From NCBI GenBank assembly GCA_905233145.1, contig CAJODI010000005.1, positions 1 through 48,644 of the forward strand: a stretch of DNA of 48,644 nt, read 5' to 3'. The position numbers and the translations under genes are program-made. The notes below the pieces were generated by a model. It was not told the DNA's origin. It saw only the letters and a program-made list of their open reading frames with translations, and ran no database searches. This stretch comes from an uncultured Ruminococcus sp. GTDB taxonomy: Bacteria > Bacillota > Clostridia > Oscillospirales > Acutalibacteraceae. Shown in pieces: positions 11,982-29,043 of this stretch (position 1 is its first letter; the number at the start of each line of letters is the position of its first letter).

Positions 11982-12117
11982 AGTTTACTATAAACAAGCA
12001 ATCAGTTTTAATATTTTTAATAACAGAATTCACTCTTTTTTGGCTATATTTTTTAGCGCAAATCTATTTTATTAAAATTACATAAAAAAATTTGTAAAAA
12101 TTCTATATCAAGTGTTA

Positions 12118-12146
12118 TTGAAGAAAATGACAAAAAGTGGTAATAT
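12118..12146 (+). promoter_or_regulatory. Promoter for the cohesin-like secreted protein
   Basis: TTGAAG, 17 bp, TAATAT, about 40 bp before the start codon. Confidence 0.65.
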
Positions 12147-12186
12147 AAAAATTAACAAAGATTTATTTTTTTCAAGGAGGATTTTT

Positions 12187-13797
12187 ATGAAAACACTTAA
12201 ACAACTTGTCAGCTTCACACTTTCTGCAATGATGGTTTTGTCTTGCTTTGCAGGACTGTCATCAACCGGAGTTTTCGCGGCTGAGGATGAAACAATCGGG
12301 AATTCTGCTGTAGGTGCGTCGACTGACAAACTCAAAATTTCCGCTGAATCAAACCTTTTCCCTGACAGTGTTATTTCTGTTTCCGAAACGGAATTGAACG
12401 GCAAAGACGATCTTGTCACAGTTTCTTACTACATTAACACGCCTAAGCGTCTTGTTAATTTTGACTGGGAGCTTGACTATGATCCACAGGTTCTTGAATT
12501 CGCTGAGGATTATAACTTTAACGAGGATTATGACCAGATGATTATGCCGCAGGTTTCCGGCGAAATATGTCTTAACACCAAGAACCCGGGAAGAATCCTT
12601 TGCAACTATGTTTCGGTTTCTGCAAAAACAAAGCTTTCAAATAACGATGATTATGTACCTTTTGTAACCGTTACCTTTAAGGCTGTTGGTTCGGGAGATG
12701 CAAAAGTTAATCTTTCGGTTAAAGATTTATCAATCTGCGACAGAAACGGCAACTACGGTGATTACAAGACAATCGAGTCAGTTGTAAAACTGGGCGAAGT
12801 AAACAAAAATTTAAGTGTTCCGGTTTCTTGTGTAACAGCTGCCTATGCGGGAACATACAGCGCATACAAAGATGTTGAGCCGCTGGATCCCGTTAAAGAC
12901 GCCAACCTCAAATTCAAGAACTATTCGCTTTCACTCGCAAGCAACATTGAGATGAACTTTAATGTAGCTCAGTCTACGCTTGAAGGTTACGACGATCCAT
13001 ACGTTGTTGTAAATATAAACGGCGAGGAAACAACAATCGAAGATTATACAGTTTCCGGCACAAACTATGTATTTAAATTTGATAAGATTTATCCGCAGCT
13101 CGTTGGAGAAAACGTTACTGCTGTTCTTCACGCAAAGCAGGGCCGCGCCGATCATTACAGTGCTCCCTATACAAAATCCGTAAAGGGCTACTGCGAAAAC
13201 ATGTTTAAATACGATCACAATACATACGGCAAGCTTCACACACTTCTTGTAAATCTTCTTAATTACGGTGAAGCGGCTCAGAATTATGTAAACTTTAAGA
13301 CAAACGAGCTTTGCACAAGGAATCTTACTTCTGAGCAAAAAGCTTGGGCTCTCACACAGGCTGATTGCGACGAGCTTAAGTCTGTTAAAAACTATCACGC
13401 CGAGAAAGTTGCTGATCCTACAGTTGCGTTCAAGTCAGCAGGTCTTTCAATCGGAAGCACAGTTGGTATCAAGATGTATTTTACATCAACCGATATTGAC
13501 AGTACAACAATCGTTGCAACAATCAACGGCAATGAGTATAACTTCACAAGTGAGGATTTTGAACCGGTTTCAGGCTATACTGACAGATATTGCCTCACGT
13601 TCAACAATCTACTCGCTAACGATATGAGAAAGACTGTTTACTTCAGAGGCTATCAAAACGGTAAGCTGGCAGGCGACACAGCAACCTACAGCATCGAATC
13701 ATACGTTTCCGCTCATATCAATGACGGAAACAAGGTTGCCGACCTTATCAAGGCAATGTACCTCTACGGTGAAGCCGCAAAGGCGTTTGCAGGATGA
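12187..13797 (+). CDS. Secreted protein: cohesin-like domain plus paired C-terminal module
   Basis: 536 residues from the ATG after AAGGAGGATTTTT; the ORF-track start 25 codons upstream overlaps the promoter and is rejected. Residues 1-31 are a signal peptide (MKTLKQLVSFTLSAMMVLSC...VFA). Residues ~55-205 are all-beta and resemble a cohesin or related carbohydrate-surface domain (VSYYINTPKRLVNFDWELDYDP, ILCNYVS, FVTVTFKAVGSGDAKVNL). Residues ~240-536 form a module in two related halves, each with an LSL..NI/LSIGS.VGI strand, an ING turn and a closing helix (LLVNLLNYGEAAQNY; LIKAMYLYGEAAKAFAG). The same module ends the CBM26 protein at 25552. No LPXTG, dockerin or SLH is present. Likely a cell-surface protein of a starch-degrading assembly; the module may mediate attachment, but that is inference. 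Confidence 0.75.
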   Translation: MKTLKQLVSFTLSAMMVLSCFAGLSSTGVFAAEDETIGNSAVGASTDKLKISAESNLFPDSVISVSETELNGKDDLVTVSYYINTPKRLVNFDWELDYDPQVLEFAEDYNFNEDYDQMIMPQVSGEICLNTKNPGRILCNYVSVSAKTKLSNNDDYVPFVTVTFKAVGSGDAKVNLSVKDLSICDRNGNYGDYKTIESVVKLGEVNKNLSVPVSCVTAAYAGTYSAYKDVEPLDPVKDANLKFKNYSLSLASNIEMNFNVAQSTLEGYDDPYVVVNINGEETTIEDYTVSGTNYVFKFDKIYPQLVGENVTAVLHAKQGRADHYSAPYTKSVKGYCENMFKYDHNTYGKLHTLLVNLLNYGEAAQNYVNFKTNELCTRNLTSEQKAWALTQADCDELKSVKNYHAEKVADPTVAFKSAGLSIGSTVGIKMYFTSTDIDSTTIVATINGNEYNFTSEDFEPVSGYTDRYCLTFNNLLANDMRKTVYFRGYQNGKLAGDTATYSIESYVSAHINDGNKVADLIKAMYLYGEAAKAFAG

Positions 13798-14065: not shown

Positions 14066-14211
14066 TTAAGGCAATACCGCATAATTCTGGTGCGCGGATT
14101 GCGTAGTCAGATTTTTCGTCAGAATGTACAAATAATCAGTGTGCATACTGATTTTTGGGCAGTCAATATGCAAGCAAGGCGTGCGCCATGAATTGTGCGG
14201 TGTTGCCTTAA
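14066..14211 (+). repeat. Family-1 MITE, copy C
   Basis: 146 bp with both ends: TTAAGGCAATACCGCATAA ... GAATTGTGCGGTGTTGCC plus TTAA. This is the reference orientation. It occupies most of the gap before the gene at 14339 and lies upstream of that gene's promoter. Confidence 0.92.
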
Positions 14212-21287: not shown

Positions 21288-22346
21288 ATGAAGGTAAAGG
21301 AAATAATCAACAAGCTTGCCGAAACAACCTGCGCCGAAAAAGAGGAACTGATTTTTTTACTTAAAAATATTACTTCCGATGAGCATGAGCTCCTCAGAGC
21401 AAAGGCGCAGTCGGCAGCGCAGCAAAGCTTTGGAAACAAAATCTATATTCGCGGCTTGATCGAGCTCACAAATATTTGCAAAAACGATTGTTATTATTGC
21501 GGGATTCGCCGGTCCAATACTAAGGCTGTGCGCTATCGTCTTAGCCCTGAGCAGATTTTGAGCTGTTGTAAAACTGGATATTCACTCGGCTTTCGCACCT
21601 TTGTGATGCAGGGCGGTGAGGACGGATTTTTTACCGATGAATTGATGTGCGATATCGTTCGCAAAATCAAAACAGCCTATCCCGACTGCGCAGTCACACT
21701 TTCTCTGGGCGAACGCGGCGAAGAAAGCTTTCGGCGACTTAAGGAGGCCGGAGCGGACAGATATCTTTTGCGTCACGAAACCGCAGACGAAGCACACTAC
21801 GCGCTGCTTCATCCCCCGGAAATGACGCTGAAAACCCGAAAAGAATCGCTTTTTACACTCAAAAGGCTGGGCTACCAGACAGGCGCAGGATTTATGGTCG
21901 GTTCACCGGGACAGACAACTGAAACGCTTGTCAGCGATTTGATGTTTTTGAAGGAGCTGGAACCGCAAATGTGCGGTATCGGTCCTTTTATTCCGCACCG
22001 CGATACTCCGTTTGCGGACAGACCTGCCGGAAGCCTCGAACTTACCTTGATCCTGCTTTCGGTGATTAGGCTTATGCATCCGAAAGTTTTGCTTCCGTCA
22101 ACCACCGCGCTCGGAACAATCAGTCCGCGCGGAAGAGAAGAAGGAATTTTGCACGGAGCAAATGTGGTTATGCCCAACCTTTCGCCTGCCGAACACAGGA
22201 AAGACTATTCGCTTTATGACAACAAAATTTGCACAGGCGACGAGGCCGCTGAATGTATACGCTGTCTGTCAAACAGAATGAATAACATAGGCTATGAAAT
22301 TGTCACCGACCGAGGTGACTTTATACTAAACTCAAATAAAAAATAG
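21288..22346 (+). CDS. hydE: [FeFe]-hydrogenase H-cluster maturase HydE (radical SAM)
   Basis: 352 residues. Radical-SAM cluster motif CKNDCYYC (CX3CX2C) in GLIELTNICKNDCYYCGIRRSN, then FVMQGGEDGFF and GAGFMVGSPGQTTE. HydE belongs to the BioB/HydE group and acts on a HydG-derived Fe complex in building the azadithiolate-bridged diiron site. The last residues (ILNSNKK) and the stop are encoded by the left end of a family-2 MITE, so the native C-terminus has been replaced. Start ATG follows the TM1266 stop by 4 bp. Confidence 0.95.
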   Translation: MKVKEIINKLAETTCAEKEELIFLLKNITSDEHELLRAKAQSAAQQSFGNKIYIRGLIELTNICKNDCYYCGIRRSNTKAVRYRLSPEQILSCCKTGYSLGFRTFVMQGGEDGFFTDELMCDIVRKIKTAYPDCAVTLSLGERGEESFRRLKEAGADRYLLRHETADEAHYALLHPPEMTLKTRKESLFTLKRLGYQTGAGFMVGSPGQTTETLVSDLMFLKELEPQMCGIGPFIPHRDTPFADRPAGSLELTLILLSVIRLMHPKVLLPSTTALGTISPRGREEGILHGANVVMPNLSPAEHRKDYSLYDNKICTGDEAAECIRCLSNRMNNIGYEIVTDRGDFILNSNKK

Positions 22347-22451
22347 ACAATCTTTGCGGTCTATTTTCCGCAATACTTCGTTGTCGTCCTTGCAAGGCGA
22401 CAGCCTTGCGGCGTCCCAAATCTTTGTCCACTTTTTATCTGAGATTAGTAT
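22323..22451 (+). repeat. Family-2 MITE, copy 1
   Basis: 129 bp. The left end ATACTAAACTCAAATAAAAA and the right end (complement ATACTAATCTCAGATAAAAA) form an imperfect ~28-bp inverted repeat ending GACAA/TTGTC. The interior has the hairpin GCAAGG/CCTTGC. A second copy is at 29178. It overlaps the last 24 bases of hydE and fills the hydE-hydG gap. Confidence 0.9.
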
Positions 22452-22475
22452 TAATAAATGATACAGGAGCAGAAA

Positions 22476-23903
22476 ATGAGTAACTACGATCCAAAATCAC
22501 TAAAAGCAGAGGAATTCATCAACGACGCCGAAATTCAGGAAACCCTGAAATTCGCTGACGAAAACAAAGATAACTTTGAGCTTATCGACAGTATAATTGA
22601 AAAAGCAAAGCTCCGCAAGGGACTTGACCACAGAGAGGCAAGCGTGCTTCTTGCCTGCGAGGATGAAGCAAAGCTAAAGGAAATATATGCCCTTGCCGAA
22701 CAAATCAAGAAGGATTACTACGGAGACAGAATCGTGATGTTTGCGCCGCTTTATCTGTCAAATTACTGTGTGAACGGCTGTGTTTACTGTCCGTATCATG
22801 CTAAAAATAAGCATATCTGCCGAAAAAAGCTAACCCAGGAAGAGGTAAAAGCAGAGGTAATCGCTTTGCAGGATATGGGACACAAGCGTTTGGCAATAGA
22901 AGCCGGTGAGGATCCTGTCAACAATCCGATCGAATATATTTTGGAATGCATAGATACAATTTACTCGATCAAGCACAAAAACGGCGCGATTCGCAGGGTA
23001 AACGTCAATATTGCCGCAACCACCGTGGAAAATTACCGAAAGCTTCACGATGCCGGAATCGGCACATATATCCTCTTTCAGGAGACCTATCACAAAAAAA
23101 GCTATGAACAGCTTCACCCAACCGGACCAAAGCACAACTATGACTATCATACCGAGGCGATGGACAGAGCTATGGAGGGCGGTATTGATGATGTGGGACT
23201 TGGCGTGCTTTTCGGTCTTGAGCTGTACCGCTATGAGCTTGCCGGACTGCTTATGCACGCCGAACATCTCGAAGCAGTTCACGGCGTGGGACCTCATACA
23301 ATCAGCGTTCCGCGAATCAAGCGCGCTGACGATATTGATCCCGAAACCTTTGACAACGGAATTGACGATGAAACCTTTGCAAAGATCATCGCGATAATCA
23401 GAATTGCCGTGCCATACACCGGCATGATTATTTCCACACGTGAAAGCAAGAGTGTGCGAGAAAAGGCTTTGCGTCTTGGAATTTCACAAATCAGCGGCGG
23501 CTCGCGTACCAGCGTGGGCGGATACGTTGAGCCCGAGGACGAGGACGAAAACTCCGCGCAGTTTGATGTTTCAGACCAAAGAACCTTGGACGAGGTAGTA
23601 AAATGGTTAATGGAGCTGGGCTATATTCCGTCCTTCTGTACTGCATGTTACCGCGAGGGCAGAACCGGCGACCGCTTTATGTCGCTGTGCAAAAGCGGAC
23701 AGATCCAAAACTGCTGTCACCCCAACGCGCTTATGACTTTGCAGGAATATCTGGTGGATTACGCTTCACCCGCCACGCGCGAAATCGGAGAAAAAGTGAT
23801 AGAGAGCGAGCTTGAGAATATTCCGAAAGAAAAAGTCAGGAAAATTGCCTCCGAATATATTGAGGAGATAAAAAACGACGGTAAACGCGATTTTAGATTC
23901 TAA
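22476..23903 (+). CDS. hydG: [FeFe]-hydrogenase H-cluster maturase HydG (radical SAM)
   Basis: 475 residues from the ATG of MSNYDPKSLK; AGGAGCAGAAA lies just upstream, so the ORF-track start six codons earlier is not preferred. Features: YLSNYCVNGCVYCPYHAKNK with the CX3CX2C radical-SAM cluster, LAIEAGEDP, GGSRTSVGGY, and the C-terminal second cluster site FCTACYREGRTGDRFM. HydG splits tyrosine to make the CO and CN ligands of the H-cluster. Part of the TM1266-hydE-hydG-hydF run; the hydrogenase itself is outside the window. Confidence 0.96.
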   Translation: MSNYDPKSLKAEEFINDAEIQETLKFADENKDNFELIDSIIEKAKLRKGLDHREASVLLACEDEAKLKEIYALAEQIKKDYYGDRIVMFAPLYLSNYCVNGCVYCPYHAKNKHICRKKLTQEEVKAEVIALQDMGHKRLAIEAGEDPVNNPIEYILECIDTIYSIKHKNGAIRRVNVNIAATTVENYRKLHDAGIGTYILFQETYHKKSYEQLHPTGPKHNYDYHTEAMDRAMEGGIDDVGLGVLFGLELYRYELAGLLMHAEHLEAVHGVGPHTISVPRIKRADDIDPETFDNGIDDETFAKIIAIIRIAVPYTGMIISTRESKSVREKALRLGISQISGGSRTSVGGYVEPEDEDENSAQFDVSDQRTLDEVVKWLMELGYIPSFCTACYREGRTGDRFMSLCKSGQIQNCCHPNALMTLQEYLVDYASPATREIGEKVIESELENIPKEKVRKIASEYIEEIKNDGKRDFRF

Positions 23904-23911
23904 ATTAATAT

Positions 23912-23983
23912 AGGCAATACCGCATAATTCAGGTGTGCGGATTGCGTAGCAAGGCGTGCGCCGTGAATTGTGCGGTGTTGCCT
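23912..23983 (+). repeat. Family-1 MITE, copy G (short)
   Basis: 72 bp: both ends (GGCAATACCGCATAATTC, GAATTGTGCGGTGTTGCC) kept, most of the interior deleted. Lies between the hydG stop and the hydF start. Confidence 0.88.
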
Positions 23984-24001
23984 GTATAATGAGGTGATGT
24001 T

Positions 24002-25195
24002 TTGAGCCTGAATTCAACTCCTGCGGCAGAAAGAACGCATATCGGCTTTTTTGGGAGACGAAACGCCGGGAAGTCGAGCGTGGTCAACGCCGTGACAAAT
24101 CAACAGGTTTCCGTAGTTTCCGACTATGCAGGAACAACTACAGATCCGGTCACAAAGACAATGGAGCTGCTTCCTCTCGGTCCGGTTGTCATTATAGACA
24201 CTCCCGGCTTTGACGACGAGGGAAGTCTTGGCGAGCTGAGGGTTAAGCGCACCCGTCAGACGCTTAACAGGATAGATATCGCCGTTTTGGTGGTTGACGG
24301 AACGTGCGGAAAAACTGCCGTGGATGACGAGCTAATTGGTATATTTAAAGAAAAGAATATACCATATATAGTAGTATACAATAAATCCGACATTTTTGAA
24401 AAAGAGAAATACCCAGACGGCTTTTGCGTAAGCGCAATAACCGGTGAGAACATAAATAAGCTTAAGGAACGCATTGCCGAGCTCAAACCCGGCGACAGTG
24501 ACAAGAGAATATGCGACGGTATTATTAAATCCGGTGATTTAGCGGTTTTAGTTGTTCCAATCGACAGTGCCGCACCCAAGGGCAGGCTGATCTTGCCTCA
24601 GCAGCAGACAATTCGGGATATACTCGATTTTGGCGCGGCAGCAGTCGTTTGCCGTGAAACCGAGCTGTCGGAAACTCTTCAAAGCCTGGGAAAAAAGCCT
24701 TCACTGGTAATAACAGACAGCCAAGCTTTTGCAAAGGTCTCAAAAATAGTTCCCGAAAATATACCTTTGACCTCTTTTTCGATTCTTATGGCAAGATACA
24801 AAGGTTTTTTGGAAAGCGCGGTAAAAGGCGCAGCTGCAATCAGCACTCTTAAGGACGGCGACTCGGTGCTGATTGCCGAGGGATGTACTCATCACAAGCA
24901 GTGTGAGGACATAGGCACGGTAAAGCTTCCGCGATGGTTAAAGAGCTTTACAGGTAAGGAGCTGGAAATAAGTACCGCCTCGGGCAGAGATTTTCCCGAA
25001 GATCTTTCGCGTTATTCACTTATTATCCACTGCGGCGGCTGTATGCTAAACGAAAGAGAGATGAACTACCGAAGAAATCACTCCTTGGACAGCGGAATCC
25101 CTATTACCAATTACGGAACGGCTATAGCCTATATGAATGGAATTTTAAGAAGAACCTTGGAGATTTTTCCAAGTATTTTGACGTTGTTAAAATAA
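24002..25195 (+). CDS. hydF: [FeFe]-hydrogenase maturation GTPase/scaffold HydF
   Basis: 397 residues from TTG, with GAGGTGATGT upstream. N-terminal GTPase: P-loop FFGRRNAGKSSVVN, G2 Thr in AGTTTDPVTKTME, DTPGFDD and YNKSD. The C-terminal cluster-binding part has EGCTHHKQC and IIHCGGCMLNERE, the family CxHx(n)HCxxC ligands. HydF carries the [2Fe] precursor and delivers it to the hydrogenase. Last gene of the cluster; no clear terminator hairpin follows, only AT-rich sequence. Confidence 0.95.
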   Translation: MSLNSTPAAERTHIGFFGRRNAGKSSVVNAVTNQQVSVVSDYAGTTTDPVTKTMELLPLGPVVIIDTPGFDDEGSLGELRVKRTRQTLNRIDIAVLVVDGTCGKTAVDDELIGIFKEKNIPYIVVYNKSDIFEKEKYPDGFCVSAITGENINKLKERIAELKPGDSDKRICDGIIKSGDLAVLVVPIDSAAPKGRLILPQQQTIRDILDFGAAAVVCRETELSETLQSLGKKPSLVITDSQAFAKVSKIVPENIPLTSFSILMARYKGFLESAVKGAAAISTLKDGDSVLIAEGCTHHKQCEDIGTVKLPRWLKSFTGKELEISTASGRDFPEDLSRYSLIIHCGGCMLNEREMNYRRNHSLDSGIPITNYGTAIAYMNGILRRTLEIFPSILTLLK

Positions 25196-25551: not shown

Positions 25552-28500
25552 ATGCGAAACTTCAAAAGCGTAAAGAAGCTCACAAGTATTGTGCTTGCTG
25601 TTATGATGGTTCTTTCTTGCGTTGTTGTAGGCGTTAGTTCTGCTAACAATGTAAAAATTGCTTTCACAAACAACAAGGGCTGGAGCAAGGTAAATATTTA
25701 CTCTTGGGACGGCAGTTTCAACAGTTGCACGGGCGATTGGCCTGGAACACAGATTACCAATACATCGACAAATGATTATGGTGAAACTGTATACTATGCG
25801 GAAATCCCATCTAACGTAAGCGGCATTGTTTTCAATGACGGCGGAAACCAGCAGACAGCTGATATTAGCTTTAACGGTCAGCCAACAGGTTGGTATATGA
25901 CCAATCAGAATGGAAACGGAAACTGGAATGTTGAGACATGGGCTTATAGTCCTGAAGGACAGACATCAACAACAGCTACTGCAGACACAAACAATCCTAA
26001 AACAGTTTACTTCACAAACGACAAGGGTTGGGGCAACATAACAGCTTTTGCTTGGAACACATACGGTGATGCAGTTGTTGGTGATTGGCCTGGTCAGTCA
26101 ATGACTAAGGACTACACAAATGACTATGGTCAGGATGTATACAAGATAACTCTTCCGGCAGCAGCAGTAGGCGTTGTTTTCTCAAACAACGGCAGCGATC
26201 AGACAGTTGACATTACACCTGTTGATAACACCGGTTATTATGCAACAAATAAGAACGGTGAAGGCAACTACGAAGTTGGTGTATGGGCACCCGTAAAGGA
26301 CGTTCAGACGACTACAGCAAAGCCACAGGGTACAACTGCTACAGTTGACACATCAGTTGAAAAGACAATTTACTTCACAAACGATAAAAACTGGTCCAAC
26401 ATTAAAGCTTATGCTTGGGACAAGGACGAGAATGCTCTTATTGGAGATTTCCCGGGAACAGGCATGACTAAGGACTACACAAATACCTATGGTCAGGATG
26501 TATACAAGATTAAAATTCCCGCAGGCGCAGTTGGCGTTGTAATTTCAGACAACGGCGGTGCTCAGACAGTTGATATTACACCTGCTGACAACACAGGTTA
26601 TTACTGCACATCGCAGAACAGCGAAAACAAGTGGGAAGTTCAGCCGTGGTCACCTGTAAAGACAGACGGAACAACAGGTCCGACAACGGTATATGATGAC
26701 AGCGCTAAGGTAGTTTACTTTACAAACAACCAGAATTGGGCTAATGTAAAGGCTTATGCATGGGATAAAAACGATAACGGCCTCCTCGGCGATTATCCCG
26801 GTACAGGTATGACTAAGGCATATACAAATGACTATGGTCAGGATGTATACAAGATTACAGTCCCCGAAGGCGCAGTTGGCGTAGTATTTTCCGACAACGG
26901 CGGAGCTCAGACAGTTGATGTTACTCCCGCTAAAGGCACAGGTTACTATCCAACAAATCAGGGTAATGACGGCAAGTGGGAAGTTGCAACATGGGCTCCT
27001 GTAGTTGAACCGACAACAGCAGCTGCAACTACTATAGACACAACAACTCAAAAGACAGTTTACTTCACAAATAACCAGAATTGGGCTAATGTAAAGGCTT
27101 ATGCATGGGACAGCGAAGATCAGCCGCTTCTCGGAGATTATCCGGGTACAGGCATGACTAAGGACAGCACAAATGGCTACGGTCAGGATGTATACAGGAT
27201 TATAATTCCTGCAGGCGCAGTTGGTGTAGTATTCTCAGACAACGGCGGTGCTCAGACAGTTGACATCGTACCGTTTGATAACACAGATTACTATCCTACA
27301 TCTCAGAATGAAGACACCAGGTGGGAAGTTGACACATGGTATCCTGTAAAGGAAACTACCGGAACAACCGGCACGATTCCTCCGGGACCAAAGACAATTT
27401 ACTTCACAAATAACCAGAATTGGGCTAATGTAAAGGCTTATGCATGGAATAAAGACAATGATGGTGTTATCGGCGATTGGCCGGGTACAGGAATGACATA
27501 TGACCATAAGAATACCTACGGCGAGGATATATACAAGATTGTTCTTCCCGAAGGAGCAGTTGGCGTAGTATTTTCAGACAATGGCGGAACACAGACAGTT
27601 GATCTTGTTCCTGTTGACAACACAGGTTATTATCCTGATTCCAAGGATAACCTTGGCAAGTGGATTTGTAAAACATGGGCTCCTGTAATAGAAGAAGGAA
27701 CAACAGTTCAGGAAACTACTGTTCAAGAATCAACTGTTCAGGAGACAACAGTTCAAGAAACAACTGTTCAGGAAACAACAGTTCAGGAGACAACAGTTCA
27801 GGAAACAACTGTTGATCAAAAAGCTCCTATTTACGTAGAAAATCAGTTTAGACCTACTTCTTACTCACTTTCACTTAAGGACAACATTGCTATTAACTTC
27901 AGAGTTAAGCCTGAAACACTTGTTGGATACACTAATCCTTATCTCGAAGTAACAATGAACGGTGAAAAGACAGTACTTAACGAGTACAAGACTCTTGATG
28001 ACGGCACAGTTGTATTCGAGTTTGACAAGGTTTATCCACAGACTGTAATTGATGACGCATCAGCTGTTCTCCACGCATTCAAGGGTGAGCAGGAATATTA
28101 CGGCGAGCCTTATGTAAAGTCAGTTAAGGAATATGCTGTAAACAACATGGCAAGAAGCACTAATCCGAATTCACTCAGAGGTCTCCTTGTAAACCTTCTC
28201 AGATATGCTGCAGAAGCACAGAAGTTTACACATTATAAGGAAGATGACCTTGCTTCAAATTACATTGACAATTCAGCAAAGCGTTTCGCAAAGACACAGC
28301 TTAACGATTTGGTTGATGTTAAGAACTATAGCGCAGAACCTTGCCCGGGTACAGTGAAAGCTACATTTACATCCGGTACACTTGTACTTGGCAGCAATGT
28401 AGGAATCAAGGTAGGCTTCAATGTAGATTCTCTTGAGAATAAGTCAATCAGAGTTGACTTCAACGGCGAATCAAAATACTATGAGGCTGATCAGCTTGCT

Positions 28501-28731
28501 CCTAACGGCAACGGTAAGGGTACATTCACATACTCAGTTTACGCTAATCAGCTCCATGAGACTGTTAAGTTCACAGTATGTGAAGGTGCAAACCACACAC
28601 CAATCAGTGATACAATGACATACAGTGCAGCTTCCTATGCAAGCAAGTACATCACAAACGAGAATGTTGGCTCGCTCCTTAAGGAACTCATGCTTTATGG
28701 ACAGGCTGCTGAAACATACGCAGCAGGCTAA
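25552..28731 (+). CDS. Secreted starch-binding protein with six CBM26-type repeats
   Basis: 1059 residues; start ATG after AAGGAGGAAGAAAC. A signal peptide (1-30, VLAVMMVLSC...) is followed by six ~115-residue repeats beginning near residues 32, 150, 270, 386, 500 and 613. Each has FTN..W.NV.AYAW, GDWPG..MTK, TN.YGQDVYKI, GVVFSDNGG.QTVD and GYY.T, the CBM26 starch-binding pattern with its aromatic residues. Repeats 2-6 are near copies; the first is diverged. Pro/Thr linkers separate them, and a TTVQE-repeat linker (~720-755) leads to the ~290-residue two-half module shared with the 12187 protein (ends LYGQAAETYAAG). No glycoside hydrolase domain and no LPXTG or dockerin. It likely binds starch granules at the cell surface or in the matrix. 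Codon use is strongly biased (GTA, ACA, AAG), as in a highly expressed gene. Confidence 0.88.
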   Translation: MRNFKSVKKLTSIVLAVMMVLSCVVVGVSSANNVKIAFTNNKGWSKVNIYSWDGSFNSCTGDWPGTQITNTSTNDYGETVYYAEIPSNVSGIVFNDGGNQQTADISFNGQPTGWYMTNQNGNGNWNVETWAYSPEGQTSTTATADTNNPKTVYFTNDKGWGNITAFAWNTYGDAVVGDWPGQSMTKDYTNDYGQDVYKITLPAAAVGVVFSNNGSDQTVDITPVDNTGYYATNKNGEGNYEVGVWAPVKDVQTTTAKPQGTTATVDTSVEKTIYFTNDKNWSNIKAYAWDKDENALIGDFPGTGMTKDYTNTYGQDVYKIKIPAGAVGVVISDNGGAQTVDITPADNTGYYCTSQNSENKWEVQPWSPVKTDGTTGPTTVYDDSAKVVYFTNNQNWANVKAYAWDKNDNGLLGDYPGTGMTKAYTNDYGQDVYKITVPEGAVGVVFSDNGGAQTVDVTPAKGTGYYPTNQGNDGKWEVATWAPVVEPTTAAATTIDTTTQKTVYFTNNQNWANVKAYAWDSEDQPLLGDYPGTGMTKDSTNGYGQDVYRIIIPAGAVGVVFSDNGGAQTVDIVPFDNTDYYPTSQNEDTRWEVDTWYPVKETTGTTGTIPPGPKTIYFTNNQNWANVKAYAWNKDNDGVIGDWPGTGMTYDHKNTYGEDIYKIVLPEGAVGVVFSDNGGTQTVDLVPVDNTGYYPDSKDNLGKWICKTWAPVIEEGTTVQETTVQESTVQETTVQETTVQETTVQETTVQETTVDQKAPIYVENQFRPTSYSLSLKDNIAINFRVKPETLVGYTNPYLEVTMNGEKTVLNEYKTLDDGTVVFEFDKVYPQTVIDDASAVLHAFKGEQEYYGEPYVKSVKEYAVNNMARSTNPNSLRGLLVNLLRYAAEAQKFTHYKEDDLASNYIDNSAKRFAKTQLNDLVDVKNYSAEPCPGTVKATFTSGTLVLGSNVGIKVGFNVDSLENKSIRVDFNGESKYYEADQLAPNGNGKGTFTYSVYANQLHETVKFTVCEGANHTPISDTMTYSAASYASKYITNENVGSLLKELMLYGQAAETYAAG
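25645..27687 (+). repeat. Six tandem CBM26-encoding repeats
   Basis: Units start near 25645, 25997, 26359, 26707, 27049 and 27388. Units 3-6 share long identical DNA stretches (for example GGCTAATGTAAAGGCTTATG in units 4, 5 and 6), pointing to recent expansion by recombination. Confidence 0.9.
27703..27810 (+). repeat. TTVQE-coding microrepeat linker
   Basis: About seven 15-bp units of ACAGTTCAGGAAACA type encode the Thr-rich linker between the CBM26 array and the C-terminal module; its length is likely variable between strains. Confidence 0.9.
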
Positions 28732-28850
28732 TAGTATCAGCATTATTTATTGTTGGTCATTACCAACAAAATAGTAATTTAACTTAATAATCCTCACCTA
28801 TCAATTTAGTAGGGATTATATAAATTCAAAAAGAAAACGAGGTGATAACA

Positions 28851-28976
28851 ATGAAAGAGATGTACACAAAGGCTACAGTTGCTATCAGCGCATTCACAGC
28901 TGAGGATGTTATCAGAACTAGCGACACATCATCACAGGGTGGTCAGCAGCCAATCGAACTTCCACCAGATGAATAA
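28851..28976 (+). CDS. 41-residue peptide, possible EDVI-type short secreted/modified peptide
   Basis: Not in the ORF track. ATG after GAGGTGATAACA opens a 41-codon frame ending TAA: MKEMYTKATVAISAFTAEDV, then IRTSDTSSQGGQQPIELPPDE. It is followed 30 bp later by a strong terminator, and its codon use (ACA, GCT, ATC) matches the CBM26 gene upstream. The layout, a charged Tyr/Lys start, F-x-x-EDVI-x-T-S, then a Gly/Gln/Pro tail, resembles short peptides common in gut Firmicutes ('...KP....F..EDVI..S'), some suspected to be peptide precursors; that link is from memory. No maturation enzyme or transporter is adjacent. Probably on the same transcript as the CBM26 gene. Confidence 0.7.
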   Translation: MKEMYTKATVAISAFTAEDVIRTSDTSSQGGQQPIELPPDE

Positions 28977-29006
28977 TTAAATTTATTTATTAAATGGAAT
29001 TTGAAC

Positions 29007-29043
29007 GGAAGCCCCTCGACTTTGTCGAGGGGCTTTCGTTTTT
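29007..29043 (+). terminator. Terminator after the 41-aa peptide gene
   Basis: AAGCCCCTCGAC pairs perfectly with GTCGAGGGGCTT around TTT, followed by TCGTTTTTGG. Confidence 0.92.

Follow-up and report, generated by a model that had tools for sequence, protein, structure and literature searches.

A conserved 41-residue peptide gene behind a starch-binding protein gene of an uncultured Ruminococcus, and its family's linkage to PqqD, peptidase-like and secreted-protein genes

A small peptide gene behind a starch-binding protein gene

Within a 48,644-nt stretch of an uncultured Ruminococcus sp. genome (contig CAJODI010000005.1 of assembly GCA_905233145.1; hereafter 'the window'), a 41-codon open reading frame follows the gene of a large secreted starch-binding protein. 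The features of the locus, and a second protein of the window used for comparison, are as follows:

25552–28731, + strand: secreted 1059-residue protein with six CBM26 starch-binding modules, the upstream partner (PF16738 in six stretches, E 5.4e-76; signal-peptide pattern)
27847–28728, + strand: the partner's C-terminal domain (CTD), common to most upstream partners of the peptide family (iterated HMM, E 5e-41)
28788–28849, + strand: conserved intergenic element with two 6-bp complementarities, one of them over the Shine-Dalgarno site (interspecies comparison)
28840–28845, + strand: Shine-Dalgarno sequence AGGTGA, 5 nt ahead of the ATG
28851–28976, + strand: peptide open reading frame, 41 residues, MKEMYTKATVAISAFTAEDVIRTSDTSSQGGQQPIELPPDE
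28851–28922, + strand: conserved leader-like part, residues 1–24, MKEMYTKATVAISAFTAEDVIRTS (74-member alignment; dN 0 between species)
28923–28976, + strand: variable tail, residues 25–41, DTSSQGGQQPIELPPDE, plus stop codon (interspecies indel; subfamily-specific tails)
29003–29041, + strand: putative intrinsic terminator, a terminator-like hairpin followed by a T-rich tail; 10 of its 18 pairs are G-C
12112–13797, + strand: second CTD protein of the window (CTD E 4e-48), with no peptide gene downstream

The peptide gene lies exactly where an earlier note, made by reading the sequence alone, had proposed it, and the good ribosome site, strong terminator and neighbour-like codon bias which that note listed are all borne out. 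With the codon usage of the upstream CBM26 gene as reference, the codon adaptiveness of the peptide frame is 0.712, as compared to 0.772 for the CBM26 gene itself, 0.58 for the other CTD gene of the window and 0.37–0.47 for nine other large window genes; the best 41-codon window in five control genes reaches 0.67, and the two alternative frames at the peptide locus score 0.27 and 0.44. While a 41-codon frame readily arises by chance, the combination of signals and codon bias seen here does not: this is a genuine, conserved gene whose expression is apparently strong. Since the gap between the CBM26 gene and the peptide gene is 119 nt, and not the 13–24 nt usual in the peptide family, we can only infer that the two are co-transcribed.

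A relative from the same genus (genome G313) carries the peptide gene at the same place with the same flanking genes, and this locus is also present in the uncultured Clostridiales RUG109 (contig OMZU01000010.1). Loss of the frame in close relatives had been named by the earlier note as grounds for dismissing the gene; the second species keeps it. The window and G313 peptides share 86–90% amino acid identity: the leaders are identical (dN 0, dS 0.23), and the tails differ by an in-frame two-codon indel. As the neighbouring genes have a dS of 0.66–2.7 and the C-terminal 200 residues of the upstream protein a dN of 0.20, the peptide is better conserved than its neighbour, and the leader is, judging by these substitution rates, under purifying selection.

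The intergenic element just upstream contains the pairs TAATCC/GGATTA and TCACCT/AGGTGA, and could, from its sequence, fold into an H-type pseudoknot hiding the Shine-Dalgarno site; its two interspecies differences both fall in loops. Among 88 genus genomes the element was found at the orthologous locus only, and an Rfam scan of the intergenic region returned nothing at gathering score. As a separate observation, a dispersed repeat of about 100 bp (GGCAATACCGCA / GGCAACACCGCACAATTCATGG..) occurs in intergenic regions of the window's own genome, including about 14070–14210 of the window and sites downstream of CTD genes at two other loci (L179 and L181).

The CTD of the upstream partner is modelled by AlphaFold2 (pLDDT 93.6) as two beta-sandwich modules with helices after each. 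In those partners that were scanned, the CTD matched nothing in Pfam, and a fold search against solved structures gave generic tandem Ig-like matches only, with TM at most about 0.35. The window's own genome has six CTD genes and a peptide gene behind just one of them, the CBM26 gene of the window; the CTD does not require the peptide.

The peptide family and its neighbouring genes

With the single sequence as query and loose E-values allowed, relatives turned up in 35 of 100 genus genomes. A family profile built from 29 sequences detected members in 41 of 81 good genus genomes (E below 1e-4), in 24 of the 107 genera sampled within the taxonomic family and in two of 349 phylum-wide genomes, one being the window's own and the other belonging to the same order; some genomes hold up to 12 copies. 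The window peptide is recovered by the profile in its own genome at E 7e-16, with Y5, D19, T23 and S24 kept, and it was itself a seed of that profile, the single-sequence search having found relatives beforehand. The family follows the pattern MKExYERxxLxITxFxxEDVITTS plus a variable tail: in a 74-member alignment Tyr5 and Asp19 are invariant, Phe15, Val20, Ile21, Thr23 and Ser24 nearly so, and position 25 is most often Gly. The tails differ between subfamilies and are conserved within them, and are not hypervariable. Pfam and NCBIfam, run on the peptide and 28 relatives, gave scattered weak single-member matches and no model that fits, and literature searches for the motif and for the gene set retrieved no paper describing either. 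At one locus (L067, contig C20 of genome G012) three tandem units about 3 kb apart each consist of a secreted protein followed by an identical family peptide.

The copies keep close company with large secreted proteins. Among 106 copies with flanks, the upstream gene is on the same strand in 98 and on the opposite strand in two, and six copies are at contig edges; the median gap to the peptide is 15 nt. Many upstream genes are truncated by breaks in the assembly; the complete ones encode proteins with a median length of 911 residues, as compared to 242 for control genes, and by a simple, loose rule applied to both sets a signal-peptide pattern is seen in 61 of 82 complete upstream genes versus 43% of control genes. 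The CTD is present in 61 of the 98 upstream proteins, other partners having an Ig-like C-terminal domain or being small dockerin proteins or radical-SAM enzymes. We considered whether the tail is tailored to the partner and rejected this: the rank correlation of tail with CTD (0.33) is weaker than that of leader with CTD (0.48), and we therefore read the former as co-inheritance.

A second set of neighbours recurs downstream. Counting once each unique peptide with at least 2.4 kb of downstream sequence, we find a PqqD gene within 3 kb on the same strand for 21 of 72, with about 0.5 expected, in loci that were chosen via the profile and in some cases fetched because a PqqD gene was near. Operons combining the peptide with an HprK-like kinase, a PqqD-family protein and a signal-peptidase-like (S26) protein are found at three loci (L075, L108 and L216), and the PqqD-family protein of the kinase operons matches PF05402 above cut-off. 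One further locus (L039) has the kinase, PqqD and the beginning of an apparent transporter gene, another (L219) a PF14907-like gene, the kinase and PqqD, and in one cluster an ABC transporter follows the kinase, PqqD and S26 genes. Many more copies show the order peptide, PqqD, S26-like protein; in these operons a PF14907 nucleotidyltransferase is often fused to or adjoins the S26-like protein, and a membrane protein, a dockerin protein and a lipoprotein also occur. The assignment as signal-peptidase-like is to be read with the fact that Pfam and NCBIfam peptidase models matched these proteins only near or below cut-off. At four loci (L239, L240, L243 and L246) the signal-peptidase-like domain and the PF14907 nucleotidyltransferase form a single protein of about 488 residues. 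Because PqqD is encoded in 87 of 88 genus genomes and the HprK-like kinase in 86 of 88, their presence alone is uninformative, and it is proximity and clade that inform: in a PqqD tree, most peptide-adjacent sequences fall into one clade.

Cysteine-bearing copies adjoin a radical-SAM/SPASM gene, the peptide following the enzyme at some loci (L102/L158, L097 and L159) and lying between a CTD-type protein and the enzyme at others (L162–L165). The family is present in 12 of the 13 genus genomes that bear this enzyme, as compared to 47 of 88 overall, and cysteine is absent from the roughly 1,490 tail residues of copies linked to CTD, Ig or dockerin proteins. At another locus (L006, about 1795–1925) the middle one of three peptide copies, behind a radical-SAM gene, is frameshifted and its two neighbours are intact.

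Finally, secreted proteins encoded downstream of the peptides often end in the peptide tail motif ELPFIP, as in DPYELPFIPNK; one secreted protein ending in TDEDELPFVPAD adjoins a peptide ending in SDPDELPFVPAN. Among secreted-like proteins, 17 of the 69 encoded downstream of a peptide carry the motif, versus four of 279 elsewhere (Fisher p 6e-10, an optimistic value because the motif was defined after being noticed), and all four of the latter also lie in loci with a peptide gene. The same motif expression matches 20 of 74 peptides. The window tail, PIELPPDE, bears a loose resemblance to the motif and does not match the strict expression, and no tagged protein was seen in the fetched parts of the window's own genome.

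Candidate processing genes in the window's own genome, and known systems

Neither in the window nor at the second-species locus is there a processing gene next to the peptide gene, and a PqqD-type RRE gene adjoining the precursor is absent from both. The window's own genome carries two peptide copies by profile search. The second, on contig C29, has a dN of 0.07 as compared to 0.28 in its dockerin neighbour; the ortholog of its locus in G313 adjoins a PqqD gene, which the window's own genome lacks there. Elsewhere in this genome the peptide-adjacent clade is represented by an orphan PqqD (contig C10, L236), whose G313 ortholog also belongs to it; a PqqD gene accompanies a signal-peptidase-like protein (contig C13, L235), and HprK-like kinase, S26-like and PF14907 genes stand together (contig C45, L214). 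Solitary HprK-like genes without PqqD on two further contigs (C72, L213; C20, L215) may have another role.

Radical-SAM genes were examined as possible partners of the window peptide and set aside. Two such genes in the window (21288–23903) adjoin hydF and fit hydrogenase maturation, the whole forming a hydrogenase-maturation cluster (21288–25195). The earlier note had pointed to radical-SAM genes elsewhere in the genome; the only match is the SCIFF maturase, which has its own precursor, the two genes lying in the order SCIFF peptide, maturase (5913–7741 of L065, contig C17). This is a radical-SAM peptide system of the same genome, with a precursor unrelated to the window peptide. No homologue of the family's own radical-SAM/SPASM enzyme was found in this genome at E 1e-30, and the window peptide contains no cysteine, which led us to reject the ranthipeptide and sactipeptide assignments for this copy. 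The cysteine-bearing family members resemble PapB-type ranthipeptides and other radical-SAM/SPASM peptides in that the SPASM enzyme next to them has such maturases among its best matches, although this enzyme scores below every curated cut-off shown.

In lasso peptide clusters the PqqD-type protein B1 binds a leader with Tyr-x-x-Pro-x-Leu and a Thr at position -2; the precursor is a substrate of kinases, and the addition of hexoses depends on a nucleotidyltransferase homologue (PMC9266682, PMC10368454). The paeninodin/pseudomycoidin-type clusters share with our family the PqqD-type leader-binding protein, the HprK-like kinase, the nucleotidyltransferase and sometimes an ABC transporter, as well as a leader that conserves a Tyr and has a Thr two positions ahead of a frequent Gly. 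However, the Tyr–Thr spacing is 18 rather than 15: if cut after S24, the window peptide would match the lasso leaders in its Thr at -2 but would have Tyr at -20 rather than -17 and Asp rather than Gly at +1. No lasso leader protease B2 or cyclase C was recognised among the operon genes listed, part of which were scanned with Pfam; the family's operons have a signal-peptidase-like protein in place of the lasso protease, and their partners are secreted CTD and dockerin proteins and lipoproteins. The HPr-rel-A and SynChlorMet cassettes (TIGR04352/04353, TIGR04248/04249) likewise combine an HprK-related and a PqqD-like protein but differ in precursor and gene content, and membership is rejected by NCBIfam scores of 15–33 bits against cut-offs of 125–200 for the kinase models and 18.6–19.8 bits against cut-offs of 100 and 35 for PqqD.

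An orphan precursor, and what else the peptide could be

The reading that we favour, and regard as about evenly poised between right and wrong, is that the window gene belongs to an RRE-guided (RiPP-like) family and that its product is an orphan precursor-type peptide, processed in trans. Residues 1–24 would be the leader bound by a PqqD-type protein; AlphaFold2 gives the peptide no secondary structure and a confidently extended N-terminal half, a model compatible with strand binding to an RRE. A signal-peptidase-like protease, acting in trans and possibly standing in for the lasso protease, would cut near T23–S24, the nucleotidyltransferase and/or the HprK-like kinase may modify the 17-residue tail, and the tail would then act together with, or upon, the starch-binding surface protein encoded at the same locus or the assembly of that protein. 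We infer all of these steps: co-transcription, binding, cleavage, modification, trans processing and the surface role. In favour of a precursor are the leader/tail split with its near-invariant residues, the purifying selection, the specificity of the family profile, the excess of PqqD genes near relatives, the two operon types with PqqD and S26-like genes, the radical-SAM/SPASM genes beside cysteine-bearing copies, the same-clade PqqD on C10 and the kinase, S26-like and PF14907 genes on C45, and the PqqD gene that G313 has beside its ortholog of the second copy. Counting against a precursor are the lack of processing genes next to the window copy in both species, the linkage to secreted proteins, which is more constant than that to PqqD, the conservation of tails within subfamilies, the departure from lasso leader spacing, and the covariation of tail with partner, which is no stronger than that of leader with partner.

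It is precisely because the secreted-protein linkage is far more constant than the PqqD linkage that one alternative stays serious, even though we consider it unlikely: the peptide may be an unprocessed small cytosolic protein co-translated with the large secreted protein, its conserved N-terminus binding this partner, its mRNA or the secretion machinery and so aiding the partner's folding, export or dosage. The 98 of 100 upstream genes on the same strand at a median 15 nt, mostly encoding large proteins with a signal-peptide pattern, the one CTD shared by 61 of 98 partners and the partner-like codon bias of the peptide all speak for such a companion; however, five of the six CTD proteins in the window's own genome lack a peptide, the partners' folds (CTD, Ig-like, dockerin, radical-SAM) are unrelated, and the linkage to PqqD, S26, PF14907 and radical-SAM genes is left unexplained. 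The earlier note had likened the peptide to poorly understood short peptides of gut Firmicutes that look like precursors or signals. Such a family does exist, with a constant leader, variable tails and home operons containing PqqD, S26-like, PF14907, HprK-like and sometimes radical-SAM/SPASM genes, while the signalling half of that comparison gained no direct support. Release and export of the tail as a pheromone reporting surface-protein expression would suit the constant leader, the short variable tails and the ABC transporter of one cluster, but the operons share no constant receptor or regulator, genomes hold many paralogues, and acidic, proline-rich tails also end secreted proteins, a sharing for which a private signal would have no use; we rate this as quite improbable.

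The shared C-terminal motif allows the tail to be read as one instance of a tag that is also found on secreted products of the operons, namely dockerin proteins and lipoproteins, with the PqqD/peptidase/nucleotidyltransferase/kinase set acting on the tag. The enrichment downstream of peptides, with even the four exceptions in peptide-bearing loci, and the 20 matching peptides favour this, but given a post hoc motif, a window tail that fails its strict form and an own genome in which the fetched parts held no tagged protein, it seems improbable for the window peptide. Taken further, peptides and secreted proteins would share a tag of approximately [DE]x[YD]ELP[FIV]xP, which a machine made up of the PqqD, signal-peptidase-like, nucleotidyltransferase and kinase proteins would recognise, modify or attach. 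This would be an undescribed system of surface-protein decoration or assembly in gut bacteria that degrade fibre and starch, the window peptide being a stray substrate tied to the starch-binding protein; this speculation we hold to be fairly improbable. Finally, it would take decay to make the gene a remnant, a former precursor whose processing system is lost and which persists solely because of recent descent or a highly expressed neighbour. That the genome has only two copies and no adjacent PqqD, and that the second locus lacks the PqqD which G313 keeps, fits such decay, but a leader dN of 0 at a dS of 0.23 and the strong codon bias make it hardly credible.

The peptide family connects genes for PqqD, peptidase, nucleotidyltransferase, kinase and radical-SAM proteins with surface proteins that bind starch or bear dockerins, and these gene linkages offer partners that can be tested for a large and so far unexplained family of peptides in a gut-bacterial lineage. 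This suggests that peptide processing is linked to the polysaccharide-degrading cell surface.
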